A stretch of 64,000 bases of DNA from a virus: positions 1-64,000 of the IMG/VR virus record IMGVR_UViG_3300021090_001018. One strand, given 5' to 3'. Below the pieces are notes generated by a model. The model searched no databases. It worked only from the letters and a program-made list of their open reading frames with translations, and was not told the origin of the DNA. Positions 35,968 to 41,325 of this stretch are shown piece after piece (the first letter of the stretch is position 1; the number at the start of each line of letters is the position of its first letter). The position numbers and the translations under genes are program-made.

Positions 35968-36663
35968 TTATCGTCTGGTCGCCCAAAAATAAACCCCATC
36001 CCGTTGACAATCATGAGTCTGGGCTAACCAACAAAGGACCTGAGTAGTCACCTCTCTCACTTTCTCTACCTCGTTACCAGAGATGGCGTAGTCATGAAGC
36101 TCCAGGCAGAGGTAATCCATCAAGGAGAGGGCCACCAGGGAGGGGGGATCATCCCAGATGGCATTTTCACCACCTTCACAATCAATCTTCATCAGGGCCT
36201 TCATGGTTGGTTTCCAGAACCGCCAGACTAAATCGCGAACGGTAACGACAGGAACCATTGACGCCTCAAGCCCCAGACCATTCCGCACTGCATTCTCCAT
36301 CACCTCCAATGGGTAACCCAGACCGGCCGATAGGTAACATTCATGCGCCCCATTAACCGCCGTGGTGGCTCTGAAGACAGGACCCCTCCCCAAAGCCGCC
36401 TCGACCAGCGACAAATTAGAATCGTGGGTGAACTGTTTGAAGACCTCCAGATTTTGGGGATGAGGTTCCACCGCGACAATATGGGCTTTAGGGAAGAGCT
36501 CGCGCGCGAAGCGGGAGAAGACTCCCACATTCGCCCCAATATCAAAGATGACGTCGGGTTGAAAGGTGACCTGACGAAGGTGATACATATCACAGGTTAC
36601 CACTTCTCCATACAAGCCGGGGTAACCTCCGTTCAAGCTCTCTTCAAGTGTTCTGGGAATCAT
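35968..36663 (-). CDS. FkbM-family methyltransferase
   Basis: 231 residues. VIFDIGANVGVFSRFARELF (motif I), HIVAVEPHPQNLEVFKQFT, LVEAALGRG and MKIDCEGGENAIWDDPPSLV mark FkbM. It is more complete than the second FkbM-type gene at 34782. The pair probably acts on different hydroxyls of one glycan. It overlaps the gene before it by 4 nt. Confidence 0.85.
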   Translation of the reverse strand: MIPRTLEESLNGGYPGLYGEVVTCDMYHLRQVTFQPDVIFDIGANVGVFSRFARELFPKAHIVAVEPHPQNLEVFKQFTHDSNLSLVEAALGRGPVFRATTAVNGAHECYLSAGLGYPLEVMENAVRNGLGLEASMVPVVTVRDLVWRFWKPTMKALMKIDCEGGENAIWDDPPSLVALSLMDYLCLELHDYAISGNEVEKVREVTTQVLCWLAQTHDCQRDGVYFWATRR

Positions 36664-37178
36664 AAGGTAGCAACTAAAATGTCTTTATGGAATTCTGGCG
36701 AGTCGATCAACTTCATTTGGTAATCGGGATTGATCCTCCTCAGAGCGCGGCGAACCTCTTTGAACCTAACCGGAAGATCCGGCGTCCCCATCAGGCGAAC
36801 GTCGTCAATCAGGATGTGGTGGATCCTCAGGAGGTGCTCCCGGATCAGAGCGAGCTCCGCCAGCAGAGGAACATCATCTATCTGGCCCCCTTCCGCACCA
36901 CAATAATGAGAATCCAGCCAGAAGGTCGCCCGGGTCGTCAAGTGAGGAAGAAAGTCCCTAAGGAACTCACGGGAGTCACCTCGATGTAGATGAACCCTAA
37001 TCGCCCGATCCTCAAAACGACGCAGGCAGTAACCAGAACAGAAAGGGTCCACCTCTACGGTGTAGATACAATCAAAACCGGCATCCAGAGCCGCCTGCAC
37101 CCCCTCCCCTTTGAAAGTGCCCGTCTCCACAAAGACGGAGGAGAAATAACGCCGCAAGATTTCAGAAGAGATAGGCAT
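36660..37178 (-). CDS. Putative methyltransferase-like protein
   Basis: 172 residues from ATG 37178, which has a very good ribosome-binding site (GGAGGTGAC). FVETGTFKGEGVQAALDAGF, IYTVEVDPFC, VHLHRGDSREFL and TFWLDSHYCGAEGGQIDDVP give the SAM-binding Rossmann pattern with an acidic second strand, and HHILIDDVRLM follows. It most likely methylates or otherwise modifies a sugar within this cassette. In-frame codons upstream overlap the previous gene and are not needed. Confidence 0.75.
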   Translation of the reverse strand: MPISSEILRRYFSSVFVETGTFKGEGVQAALDAGFDCIYTVEVDPFCSGYCLRRFEDRAIRVHLHRGDSREFLRDFLPHLTTRATFWLDSHYCGAEGGQIDDVPLLAELALIREHLLRIHHILIDDVRLMGTPDLPVRFKEVRRALRRINPDYQMKLIDSPEFHKDILVATL

Positions 37179-37179
37179 G

Positions 37180-37935
37180 TCACCTCCGCCTGGCTTCATG
37201 CCAGTCAAACTGAGCGGGGTCAAAATCAGTCATGCGATCGGCAAACCAATAAGGCCCTAGTTTCCTGAACCCACTGAACTGAGTTATTCCTTTGCCAATA
37301 TCACTCTGGTTATCATATTGAATGATACATCCTGGAACAAAGGCGTAGGTGATCAACTGGGGCTCCAGCTGGATGAACGCCCAATCAATTCCCATGCTCA
37401 GCGGAAGGATTGCCTCAATCATAGGAAGGATCTTGGCGATGCTCTCGCGGTTAACCAGATAGGCGTGAGTCGAAAAGGCCCCATAGGTCCGCATCATGCG
37501 AGGATCGTCGGTCTGCTCGGCATCACGACCCAGGTCGTCCTTATGCCACCATGGGGGGTTCACATGGAAGGTTCCGCCCATCCATAGAACATCCCAGGGA
37601 TGGTTGGTAATGAATCGCTCCATGTAGTCGATCCTATCAAGGAAATCAGAACAGAAGACCAAATCGTCCTCCATCACAAAGGCGTGCTTCCCTTGTCGCA
37701 GGGCCTCTTCCATAATCCCCACCTGACTGAAATGACAACCAATGGCTCCTTTCTGGGGGCGGTGTAACATGCACGCGATGCGAGCGGGATCCCCCTGGTA
37801 TTCAGAAGGGAGCATCCCGCGTGTGCGCGTAGCCTGCAATCCTACCGTCGCCAAGGCTACCGCCATGTGCCGCCGGCGATCGGCCCGATGGTCGAGGTTG
37901 ACAAAACTGAGATAGGCTTGGTTTAATAGACTCAT
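37180..37935 (-). CDS. Glycosyltransferase family 25-like
   Basis: 251 residues. The start AYLSFVNLDHRADRRRHMAV, GCHFSQVGIMEEALRQGKHA, FVMEDDLVFCSDFLDRI and GGTFHVN are the GT25 pattern (LPS biosynthesis glycosyltransferases) with the EDD metal motif. The middle GAFSTHAYLVNRESIAKILP and GIDWAFIQLEPQ are also typical. It should add a hexose to a glycan. The stop lies 2 nt before the next ATG. Confidence 0.85.
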   Translation of the reverse strand: MSLLNQAYLSFVNLDHRADRRRHMAVALATVGLQATRTRGMLPSEYQGDPARIACMLHRPQKGAIGCHFSQVGIMEEALRQGKHAFVMEDDLVFCSDFLDRIDYMERFITNHPWDVLWMGGTFHVNPPWWHKDDLGRDAEQTDDPRMMRTYGAFSTHAYLVNRESIAKILPMIEAILPLSMGIDWAFIQLEPQLITYAFVPGCIIQYDNQSDIGKGITQFSGFRKLGPYWFADRMTDFDPAQFDWHEARRR

Positions 37936-37942
37936 AAATTAT

Positions 37943-39460
37943 TCACAGTCTCTCCCACTCCAATGGGACAATGTCACGAGTGTCTTCAGGTCGGCCTGGC
38001 ATGAACCATTGTTTGGGCATGATTATTCTCTTGTTGGGATTTTGATTCAACCAGGCACCCCACCATGAATAGGTCGAGGCTGAACAAATATGATGCTCGC
38101 AGGTAGCCATGTAGGTAAGATCAGCCACCTCATCCGTCCCTTTGCTGATGGTAACATCCTTCCTCATCCCATAGGTAGCGCGGCACCAAGGGATGTCATC
38201 GGAGAAGAAGATGAAGTGATAACCAGGAAAGACTCGCATGGCCGCGTCAATCCACTCCTTAGAAACCAGCGGATGTTTCTGGGTTAGCATGAGATAGTCA
38301 CCTCGCCGCACATGGACGGAGACGAATCCTGGAAGGGGTCTCCAAGGAAAACCAAACGCGGCAATGATTCGATCGCGAAACTCCTTGAAGTATTTCTCCG
38401 TCTGCCAGTAACCATCTAGGACGATGTTCTGGCGGCGCCAGATCTCCCGAAAGGGAAGCTCTTGGTAGTAGAAGACCCCCTCCGTGAGCTTGATCTCCGG
38501 CAAGCTCGGACTCCAGTCCGTGTTTACCAGATGCTGGAGGTAGATAGGGTTACCTTTGGGGTTGGTGGTCCGATTGGGAAGGGTGAACTCGAGTCCGTGC
38601 TTCCACGCATAGCCCATTGCAGCCGCCGCTTGGAAGAGGAAATTCCCCATCCTTCCATACGTCCTAGGTATCACCATAGATCTGCCTTTCACTTGACGAA
38701 GTTTGTCCTCAACGACCCGATCGAAACCTTTAGTGAGATGATGATTCAACTTGTAATGACTCCCATCATGGAGGCGATGAAAATAACGGAGACCCGACAC
38801 CACCATCAACTGCCGGCCGGAGCGAAGCCAGTTATAGATCTGGTAGATGGAATCAGCGGTGTGAGGATTAACCGAACCATCCCAGACCTCCAAGTAACTC
38901 GCGCGGTGGACGAAATAGTTGCAGGTATTGAGGAGGCAACCAAAATTGGTCTTGTTTGGACGGAGCGGGGTGCGACCTCCTCTGGCGCGATTGGGAACCG
39001 GAGGGGCTGAAGGGGCCGGAGGGGTCATCAGAGCCGCCACATTCTTTGAGGAGATTATCTGACCCGACCAGGATCGGTAGTCGAAGGAAGGTTCGGCAAA
39101 TTCTGGACAATAAACCGTCTGGGGGTCCCAGCCCTCCAGAGCAAATAGAGCATCCAAATAGGCCTTGGAGAGAATGTTATCACTGTCGAAGAGAATAACC
39201 CATTCACCCATAGCCCGTTCCACCGCCTTCTGTTTATTGAAGTAGCAATCAAGATTCTTCTCATTCCGAAAGAGCCTAACCTTAGGCAAATCCCTGAAGC
39301 TCTCTACCAGTTTCTCATAGGAACCATCGGTGCTGGCATCGTCGCTGATGACAATCTCGGCAATACGCGGATCATCCTTTACCTGAGCGATGCACTCAAG
39401 TAGAAAGGCATACCGGTTGAAATGAGTGATGGCTAGGCTGATGGAGGAAGGGTGCATCAT
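37943..39460 (-). CDS. Bifunctional glycosyltransferase: GT2 plus GT11-like fucosyltransferase
   Basis: 505 residues. The N-terminal half is a GT2 enzyme (ISLAITHFNRYAFLLECIAQ, EIVISDDASTDGSYEKLV, GEWVILFDSDNIL). The C-terminal half, from about residue 265, has TYGRMGNFLFQAAAAMGYA, VSVHVRRGDYL, FIFFSDDIPWC and HHICSASTYSWWGAWLN, the motifs of GT11 alpha-1,2-fucosyltransferases. Two different transferases in one chain suggest two successive steps on one oligosaccharide. ATG 39460 overlaps the stop of the head morphogenesis gene (ATGATG). A Pro/Ala-rich linker lies near 150-165. Confidence 0.85.
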   Translation of the reverse strand: MMHPSSISLAITHFNRYAFLLECIAQVKDDPRIAEIVISDDASTDGSYEKLVESFRDLPKVRLFRNEKNLDCYFNKQKAVERAMGEWVILFDSDNILSKAYLDALFALEGWDPQTVYCPEFAEPSFDYRSWSGQIISSKNVAALMTPPAPSAPPVPNRARGGRTPLRPNKTNFGCLLNTCNYFVHRASYLEVWDGSVNPHTADSIYQIYNWLRSGRQLMVVSGLRYFHRLHDGSHYKLNHHLTKGFDRVVEDKLRQVKGRSMVIPRTYGRMGNFLFQAAAAMGYAWKHGLEFTLPNRTTNPKGNPIYLQHLVNTDWSPSLPEIKLTEGVFYYQELPFREIWRRQNIVLDGYWQTEKYFKEFRDRIIAAFGFPWRPLPGFVSVHVRRGDYLMLTQKHPLVSKEWIDAAMRVFPGYHFIFFSDDIPWCRATYGMRKDVTISKGTDEVADLTYMATCEHHICSASTYSWWGAWLNQNPNKRIIMPKQWFMPGRPEDTRDIVPLEWERL

Positions 39461-41325
39461 GTGACCGAGGTAGGGATCCATGTGCAACGGCAATTACTTG
39501 ACAAGATCCCATTTACACTATACATTGAACTATGAGTCGATACGTCAAAAACAAATACACCTCCCCGACCAGATTCTACAATCTGGACATCGACGATCTC
39601 GTCGAACGCTACCTCCGCGGGGAGAGCCTCAACCAAATCGCCGCAGTCTTCCATTGTTGTCGTCACGTGATCATGACAAGACTTATCTTCGCAGGGATTA
39701 CGATACGAACCCTCACTGAGAGCAATAGGCTGATGGCCAGCCGAAGAACCGCGAGCGAGAATAGCTGGAATGCTCTTGCGGCTCAGAAGGCAGTCCGCGG
39801 CCGCCGCCAACCTTTCAAGGAGAAGCGACAGCGAGCTCTCACCATCCAAAAACAAGGGCTGACGAGTCGAAACGTCTCCACCCATGAGAAAGAGTTTTTT
39901 CGCCTGTGCCAGACACAGAGAGTGGAACTGACCCCTCAATTCGCAGTCGGAAAGTATAACGTCGATTTCCTCATCAAGGGCACCACCGTCACCGTGGAAG
40001 TATTGGGGGCGGGTGCCAGATATTCTTCGGAGGTGTTTAGGAAGTATTTTGGAGATCGTCTCAAATACATTAGAAATCGAGGCTACTCCATCATTCTTAT
40101 CTGGGTGTTCAATAAAAGTAGAATCAACCGACGATGCACCAATAAGACAATCGCCCTGGCGAAGGTCTTTAGCCAAACACCAACCACCCCGGGTCAACAA
40201 CACATGATGTTCAGTGACGGAGAGCCGGCGATTGTGAAGAGTGGTCAAGTGAATCACTCTTCCATGATACTTTGCCCGAGTGAGGAAGAGTGCATCAGGA
40301 CATTCAATGAGGCTATCACCTAAAACACAATTGGGGTGGAGTGGAATCATCCCACGGGCCTGTTCGATTGTAAAGACCTGCCCCTCCATGGGGAGGCAGA
40401 GTTCACACACCCTATCATCTCCCGCAGTGGACCACTCGGCTTTGATGCCTAGTTCCTGCACCCCAAGACGATTGAAGGCGTCCAGCTGGCCCTCAGCGTG
40501 GGCGTTAATGATCTCCGTCCTCGCTATGGTAAGGGCCCGGGAACCTGCGAGAGATCCAATTCTCTCGCCGAGCTCGCGGGCGAGATCCTCCGCTCCACGT
40601 CCATCAGCGATCCCTTGCGCGAGAATCCGGTTCATCTCCGACGACATGGTGGCCGTAATGCCACGCAACTGCTCAAAGGCCCGGGTGCCAAGCAATTGAA
40701 CCTTGGACATCGTCTCCGGCTGAGCGAAGGATGACTTTAGGAAGGACTCCGATGACTGATCCGTGCCGGTGATCGTCCGGGAGGAGATAAAGGCATTGAA
40801 CTGACCTCTGCGATACGCAGACTCCACGAACTCGGTCGTCCATGGGGTTCCCGCCGGGGTACCTGGGTCCGGTGACAAGACGTTCGCCTCAACTTGCTGG
40901 CGAAACCAGTCATTAAACGCACCGAGCTTCTGGGCATCGGTCCGGAACTCAAACTCCCGGGGTTGGACGTGTAGAGCGATGGTCTGGAAAGGAACGAGAT
41001 GCTTCTTCTCCTTCAAACCGAGGGCATCCTTCTCCACCATGAAATCTTTCACGGCTCTTCGCAAGTTCCTAAAGGCCTTGGACAGCTCTCGCATGAACGC
41101 CCGGCGGAGCGAAAGAGTCCGGGTGGGGTCCATCTTTAATGGATTAGTCCTCTGGTTTGAGACGAAAGCATTCCCGGCCGACCGGCTCGCATAGTAGGCC
41201 GCGATAGCCGCCCGAGCCTTCCCTTTGGAACGATGACGAGAGACGATATGACCATGAGCATCCACCTTGGCCCAAGGCTCACCAGGGCGGCCTGTAACGG
41301 GGCGATATTCGACGGTGTAGGGCAT
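39457..41325 (-). CDS. Head morphogenesis protein (SPP1 gp7/Mu F type) with intein
   Basis: 622 residues. The extein parts (1-332 and 612-622) form a phage head morphogenesis protein: RALTIARTEIINAHAEGQLD, WSTAGDDRVCELCLPMEGQV and IPLHPN joined to CRCTWIP. That HPNCRC motif is the hallmark of the family, and the intein sits exactly inside it (after N332, before C612). The protein acts in capsid assembly with the portal. The N-terminal extension (VEYRPVTGRPGEPWAKVDAH) is a short extra module. A separate open frame lies on the opposite strand inside the intein. Splicing activity is predicted, not shown. Confidence 0.85.
   Translation of the reverse strand: MPYTVEYRPVTGRPGEPWAKVDAHGHIVSRHRSKGKARAAIAAYYASRSAGNAFVSNQRTNPLKMDPTRTLSLRRAFMRELSKAFRNLRRAVKDFMVEKDALGLKEKKHLVPFQTIALHVQPREFEFRTDAQKLGAFNDWFRQQVEANVLSPDPGTPAGTPWTTEFVESAYRRGQFNAFISSRTITGTDQSSESFLKSSFAQPETMSKVQLLGTRAFEQLRGITATMSSEMNRILAQGIADGRGAEDLARELGERIGSLAGSRALTIARTEIINAHAEGQLDAFNRLGVQELGIKAEWSTAGDDRVCELCLPMEGQVFTIEQARGMIPLHPNCVLGDSLIECPDALFLTRAKYHGRVIHLTTLHNRRLSVTEHHVLLTRGGWCLAKDLRQGDCLIGASSVDSTFIEHPDKNDGVASISNVFETISKILPKHLRRISGTRPQYFHGDGGALDEEIDVILSDCELRGQFHSLCLAQAKKLFLMGGDVSTRQPLFLDGESSLSLLLERLAAAADCLLSRKSIPAILARGSSAGHQPIALSEGSYRNPCEDKSCHDHVTTTMEDCGDLVEALPAEVAFDEIVDVQIVESGRGGVFVFDVSTHSSMYSVNGILSSNCRCTWIPTSVT
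39498..39524 (+). promoter_or_regulatory. Candidate promoter for the antisense endonuclease
   Basis: TTGACA at 39498-39503 and TATACA at 39519-39524, spacer 15 nt (17 if TACATT is used). The expected start of transcription is at or next to the ATG at 39532, which has no Shine-Dalgarno sequence, so a leaderless mRNA is likely. On the minus strand the same bases encode the intein's C-terminal splice motif. Confidence 0.55.
39532..40323 (+). CDS. Homing endonuclease-like protein, antisense and nested inside the intein
   Basis: 263 residues on the strand opposite to the intein, fully within its limits (39 nt inside one end, 6 nt inside the other). Residues 18-60 form a helix-turn-helix (DIDDLVERYLRGESLNQIAA, then IMTRLIFAGITI) followed by ESNRLMASRRT. 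Residues 115-200 form a Vsr/PD-(D/E)xK-like nuclease core: EKEFF (Glu119), VGKYNVDFLIKG (Asp145), TVEVLGAG (Glu156) and LKYIRNRGYSIILIWVF. This domain order is known from free-standing phage homing endonucleases. It probably cuts intein-free alleles and so spreads the intein. The promoter-like sequence upstream supports separate expression. Chance origin is unlikely given recognisable domains in order, but expression is not shown. Confidence 0.8.
   Translation: MSRYVKNKYTSPTRFYNLDIDDLVERYLRGESLNQIAAVFHCCRHVIMTRLIFAGITIRTLTESNRLMASRRTASENSWNALAAQKAVRGRRQPFKEKRQRALTIQKQGLTSRNVSTHEKEFFRLCQTQRVELTPQFAVGKYNVDFLIKGTTVTVEVLGAGARYSSEVFRKYFGDRLKYIRNRGYSIILIWVFNKSRINRRCTNKTIALAKVFSQTPTTPGQQHMMFSDGEPAIVKSGQVNHSSMILCPSEEECIRTFNEAIT

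Follow-up and report, generated by a model that had tools for sequence, protein, structure and literature searches.

Does a phage head gene that is interrupted by an intein encode a second protein, a homing endonuclease, on the opposite strand of that same intein? The question arises in a window of 64,000 nucleotides (the whole stretch of DNA analysed here), which is part of a viral record of 67,360 bases. The interrupted minus-strand frame matched Phage_Mu_F in Pfam (1.7e-12) and the head morphogenesis family phrog_758 (1.4e-39), and its C-extein consists of CRCTWIPTSVT only. The original prediction, made from the letters alone, had described an intein at HPN|CRC in this gene, with Cys1, TxxH, a terminal Asn and a +1 Cys, and, antisense to it, a 263-codon frame that starts 39 nt inside one intein end and stops 6 nt inside the other. 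The coordinates of both proved to be exact and the residues check, with Cys1, TEHH in block B, the terminal SSN and Cys+1 all present in the window intein. The two frames share one codon register, in which minus codon positions 1, 2 and 3 lie opposite plus positions 3, 2 and 1 (Table 1).

Table 1. Features of the interrupted head gene and of its opposite strand, in window positions.
Feature	Positions	Strand	Basis or remark
MuF-like minor head (head morphogenesis) gene with in-frame intein interruption	39457-41325	minus	Pfam, phrog_758
Intein, 279 aa, Cys1 to Asn279, site HPN|CRC	39493-40329	minus	Intein_splicing, invariant residues, model, empty sites
N-terminal Hint part, residues 1-57	40159-40329	minus	minus-strand constraint in codon-position profile; block B TEHH at 40204-40215
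C-terminal Hint part, residues 250-279	39493-39582	minus	minus-strand constraint; antisense promoter and nuclease start also here
Dual-coded motif, minus F-H-G-D-G opposite plus T-V-T-V-E156	39985-39999	minus	near-frozen plus wobble in relatives
Sigma-70 promoter TTGACA-17-TACATT (10/12)	39498-39526	plus	antisense to intein C-terminal codons; ends 5 nt before nuclease ATG
Putative antisense homing-endonuclease gene, 263 codons, codon-aligned with intein	39532-40323	plus	comparative loci, AlphaFold pLDDT 85
Helix-turn-helix region, nuclease residues 20-54	39589-39693	plus	HTH_7 in 31/79 members; model helices 20-28, 33-40, 44-53
Vsr/EDxHD-like nuclease domain, residues 113-215	39868-40176	plus	VIA-align, profile match to 3r3p
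Nuclease catalytic-core codons E119, D145, E156	39886-39888, 39964-39966, 39997-39999	plus	

Within the head module, the MuF gene is directly followed, at 35968-39493 of the window, by a run of genes that by eye resemble sugar- and methyltransferases (FkbM-like methyltransferase, glycosyltransferases), and L001, one of the related loci described below, has a glycosyltransferase-like ORF at the corresponding place. This run is possibly involved in virion glycosylation.

We searched and modelled the plus-strand product separately from the intein. The nuclease profile matched 3r3p, the catalytic domain of the homing endonuclease I-Bth0305I (E 8.7e-5), and 68 of 79 family members matched MTES_1575 in Pfam, in addition to the HTH_7 matches listed in Table 1. 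I-Bth0305I and Vsr were also the top Foldseek matches of the AlphaFold model, which VIA-align superposed with Z scores of 11.3 on Vsr (1cw0) and 10.6 on I-Bth0305I (3r3p). Residues Y142, N143, D145 and E156 are invariant in 79/79 nuclease sequences, and E119 is conserved in at least 90% of them, in agreement with the anticipated helix-turn-helix and Vsr-like core built on Glu119, Asp145 and Glu156. In a comparison with the E-D-x-H-D type, made without mapping residues onto its defining description, E119, D145 and E156 are conserved, and the W-H pair that follows in the consensus is absent in the window. Judged from its profile and modelled fold, the plus-strand protein is a real nuclease, specifically an EDxHD/Vsr-like one, with cleavage itself inferred.

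The arrangement recurs far beyond this locus. A tblastn search with the plus protein matched at least 113 phage records (Salmonella, Pseudomonas, Gordonia, Klebsiella, Vibrio and others), mostly with ~90% coverage of the protein at ~26% identity, and the matches fall under annotated head genes or hypothetical proteins; the intein protein as query found phage matches over its first half only. Scanning with the nuclease alignment revealed 322 related stretches in viral contigs, of which the best 80 were kept for inspection. It also yielded 10 loci in the genomes of bacteria, among them Acidobacteria, Actinobacteria, Firmicutes, Chloroflexi and Gammaproteobacteria. At all 103 loci inspected, which include only the best 80 of the 322 viral relatives, the nuclease lies antisense, in the same codon-aligned register, inside one continuous minus ORF, and no free-standing copy occurs among them; Vibrio phage H2 provides a further case of an antisense nuclease in an intein. 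Homologous inteins had been expected to keep the antisense frame, and they do so at 103/103 loci, the sole nonsense codon noted being that of L045. In phages and prophages from many bacterial phyla, the frame is conserved at the protein level, and in Salmonella-type phages a near-full-length intein is found in 70 of 72 records. The nuclease gene is annotated in none of the phage records that we opened, a subset of the at least 113. Since the intein-protein search yielded no related loci, same-type inteins without the nuclease were not properly sampled. These observations establish the arrangement as a widespread class, not a single oddity.

The proteins that host the element are MuF, portal-MuF fusions, minor capsid protein 2 and, once, a deoxycytidylate deaminase-like protein, and there are several insertion sites, HPN|C being the most frequent. 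In KX853510.1 (616-1968), the element interrupts a dCMP/cytidine deaminase-like gene, which the record annotates as head morphogenesis. In Escherichia phage fEg-Eco06, the element occupies a different position of the MuF gene, SRTSTT|C, which lies upstream of HPN|C, the site used elsewhere.

Evidence for mobility came from the host genes. An empty site, that is, an uninterrupted HPNCRC, is present in L105, L106 and L108, whose MuF proteins are 58-67% identical, and among pairs of clearly similar nucleases the N-exteins lacked detectable similarity in 1252 of 1630. Empty MuF sites and similar nucleases in unrelated host proteins point to horizontal spread, as far as sequence comparison can tell, and spread as one unit may be inferred from the empty sites and mismatched host proteins, homing being unproven. 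L045 carries a single nonsense codon in the nuclease and an intact intein ORF, as expected for a homing endonuclease that decays after fixation. The plus gene might nevertheless be real and yet have ceased to home, acting instead on the head gene, as its antisense regulator or as a repressor that binds DNA, or serving as a general nuclease against competitors. It has a helix-turn-helix, its own promoter opposes late transcription, its homing target is untested, and phage homing endonucleases can also serve in inter-phage competition (PMC7468147). We regard such a role as improbable, although it is the alternative that survives best: the catalytic D145 and E156 do not vary, the empty sites and unrelated host proteins speak for mobility, and one element pairs a decayed nuclease with an intact intein, as in a homing cycle.

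To locate selection on the two strands, 24 locus pairs were aligned as DNA and mismatches were counted by minus codon position. At minus positions p1/p2/p3, the mismatches numbered 1424/1217/2011 in the exteins, 490/241/679 in N-Hint and 349/210/418 in C-Hint, versus 2123/983/1391 in the intein middle. The mismatch excess thus moves to the plus wobble position in the middle (Fisher p 2e-56 vs exteins), and the window compared with L001 alone already displays the strand switch (p 1e-4); the pairs share some loci and ancestry, and the p-values are indicative only. In the same region, plus-protein identity exceeds minus-protein identity in 24/24 pairs. A sliding codon-position profile placed the strand switches near intein residues 58 and 249, with residues 1-57 and 250-279 constrained on the minus strand and residues 58-249 on the plus strand. 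In inteins, the endonuclease normally sits between the N- and C-Hint parts, which matches these two positions. The original prediction, which would have failed if the middle were conserved only in the minus frame, is upheld by the 24 pairs and the profile, and the computation shows that both strands encode selected proteins.

The two constraints may even coincide inside the nuclease core. In relatives (83 loci), the minus-strand F/L-H-G-D-G faces the catalytic strand x-V-A-V-E156, and the plus wobble bases along this motif are C in 79, 82 and 79 of the 83 and G in 70/83. They are near-frozen even where the plus residue differs between loci, which suggests an extra intein-side constraint within the core and selection on both strands at once.

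We also searched the intein codons for signals of expression, using 1000 synonymous recodings of the same peptide per intein as the control. The window promoter exceeded its recodings at p=0.001. An antisense TTGACA-17-TATAAT lies in the last codons of inteins whose terminus is SSN or TSN, and 16 of 19 of these inteins were individually significant (p<0.05; combined 1.7e-24), whereas inteins ending in HN have an extended -10 instead, TGNTATAAT (combined 2.8e-12). Over all intein endings, the promoter matches reach 12/12 at 10 loci and 11/12 at 9 loci, and nearly all of these lie 26-29 nt upstream of the nuclease start. In most relatives, that start is reverse-complementary to the His codon of block F (HVYNLQT), and the codons after this His read in reverse as a Shine-Dalgarno, GGAGGT. 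A Shine-Dalgarno match of at least 4 nt precedes 83% of nuclease starts but only 8% of the antisense starts taken as controls, and Leu in block F is encoded by CTC or CTT in 51/55 vs 39% in exteins; tested locus by locus against synonymous recoding, the Shine-Dalgarno signal is weak (combined p 0.003). The window itself has an imperfect -10 (TACATT) and no Shine-Dalgarno before the nuclease ATG, and its translation is inferred to be close to leaderless. In L001, the -35 is absent and the conserved promoter was not found. Altogether, promoter and start signals are shown by computation to exceed synonymous chance, and transcription is inferred from them.

These results bear on whether the plus frame could be a shadow ORF without a product, held open merely because of codon usage and because the intein protein is conserved. 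In the codon-aligned register, only stops opposite Leu or Ser codons could close the frame; a 139-codon plus-strand ORF without supporting evidence (40280-40699) overlaps the same head gene, and intein block B largely determines the C-terminal tail of the plus protein (RVIRG in relatives). The length of the frame alone is indeed weak evidence, since antisense frames in this register stay open easily. However, from the codon usage of the exteins, 396 antisense stops would be expected in the overlap across 77 loci, and 0 were observed; the covering ORF was picked as open, yet every locus had one. With changes in the middle concentrated at the plus wobble and identity higher on the plus side in every pair, a product that matches I-Bth0305I and Vsr by both profile and fold, and promoter and start signals in place, very little room is left for a mere shadow. 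A chance ORF was rejected on conservation, the codon-position tests and the fold.

We next consider the minus strand. Searched alone, the window intein matched Intein_splicing with E 4.5e-6, so that a separate profile search recovers the predicted intein, albeit below the Pfam curated cut-off of 35.8 bits, and its penultimate residue is Ser, not His. Both points would be compatible with an in-frame filler that the head protein tolerates, as in the ShiLan element, leaving only the plus nuclease functional. This is hardly credible given that C1, T39, H42 and N279 are invariant in 44 inteins, that several relatives pass the Pfam cut-off, and that minus-strand purifying selection is located exactly at the Hint ends. 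Moreover, the intein model is mostly above pLDDT 90 in its Hint parts (residues 1-66 and 239-279), and Foldseek matched it to the RadA, RecA and GyrA inteins (prob. ~1.0, best E 3.4e-3). The class 1 Hint intein criteria, namely the sequence motifs, the Hint fold and the absence of the insert from homologous hosts, are met, with splicing activity inferred. Family profile searches found no endonuclease family match in the minus-strand middle, and model residues 129-233 are mostly below pLDDT 50; an in-frame endonuclease, as in a canonical endonuclease-containing intein, was rejected on these grounds.

We are therefore highly confident that the locus is a mobile phage intein with an EDxHD/Vsr-type homing endonuclease encoded antisense through the Hint codons and served by its own embedded promoter, where splicing, transcription, the cleavage site and homing are inferred in the absence of expression, splicing or cleavage data. 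In the proposed mechanism, the Hint splicing domain made from the minus strand would excise itself from the MuF head protein, while the opposite strand would supply, in codon alignment and at the place where canonical inteins hold an in-frame endonuclease, a helix-turn-helix and EDxHD/Vsr-type nuclease. Transcribed from the sigma-70 promoter inside the intein C-terminal codons, this nuclease would cleave MuF alleles that lack the intein, in or close to the HPN|CRC codons; on repair of the break with the occupied allele as template, the two-strand unit would be copied in its entirety. Intein splicing would protect the host gene, and the nuclease would provide mobility. As for its history, a reversed Vsr-type nuclease gene likely came to lie in the loop region of a small intein; the minus frame may then have been kept stop-free and the nuclease ends extended into Hint codons, both steps being inferences.

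More broadly, we think it probable, with less assurance than for the locus itself, that these loci represent a large, ancient and undescribed class of mobile inteins, in which an antisense Vsr-type nuclease gene, its promoter and its start signals lie within splicing-domain codons and FHGDG is selected on both strands. Such a class adds an architecture that couples splicing to mobility, and a long antisense double coding with measurable selection on both strands, its boundary resolved to ~12 codons. It also offers a concrete case of a bacterial promoter retained inside the codons of an unrelated conserved protein. Intein surveys restricted to the host frame would miss the antisense nuclease, and the nucleases would also be a fresh source of site-specific enzymes directed against a phage head gene.

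The components are already known: inteins, EDxHD/Vsr homing endonucleases, antisense endonuclease genes in group I introns, and an out-of-frame HNH on the same strand. Their combination, an intein with an antisense nuclease, is not described in the literature that we searched; a 2025 preprint on non-canonical actinophage inteins, cited in PMC11855218, may overlap. For Salmonella and E. coli phages, two papers report an intein, and nothing more, in the head protein (PMC8425127, PMC11162368), and the UPWr_S phages and vKMB36, which are among our matches, carry the same elements; the passages searched in these two papers do not mention an antisense nuclease.

In fractured genes, the enzymes are reportedly encoded by separate ORFs between split-intein halves. 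The window intein, in contrast, is one continuous ORF with the nuclease antisense within it, and a fractured gene or split intein was rejected on the continuous minus ORF of all 103 loci. For such fractured genes with split inteins, PMC12350094 cites Dassa 2009. The ShiLan element, an out-of-frame HNH in a phage methylase, on the same strand and without a splicing domain (PMC11855218), likewise conceals its endonuclease, in that the insert is open in the host frame and the enzyme is read in a different one; no ribosome-binding site was found for it (PMC11855218). The present element differs in being antisense and intein-based, with a promoter and, in most relatives, a Shine-Dalgarno sequence; an insertion of the ShiLan type was excluded by the opposite-strand nuclease and the Hint domain.

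With I-Bth0305I and other EDxHD/Vsr-like homing endonucleases, the element shares the nuclease fold family and the association with phage genes and inteins. Antisense homing-endonuclease genes are known in nuclear group I introns (I-DsqI, PMC9548176), which are likewise mobile splicing elements with the nuclease gene on the opposite strand; those introns splice as RNA and involve no double protein coding, whereas here the same DNA codes for two proteins on opposite strands. Finally, as in canonical inteins with a nested in-frame endonuclease (LAGLIDADG, HNH), the insertion into a conserved motif is precise and the endonuclease splits Hint between its N- and C-parts. Unlike in those inteins, the endonuclease found here has a gene to itself, which lies on the opposite strand, has its own promoter and overlaps most of the intein, including both Hint ends.
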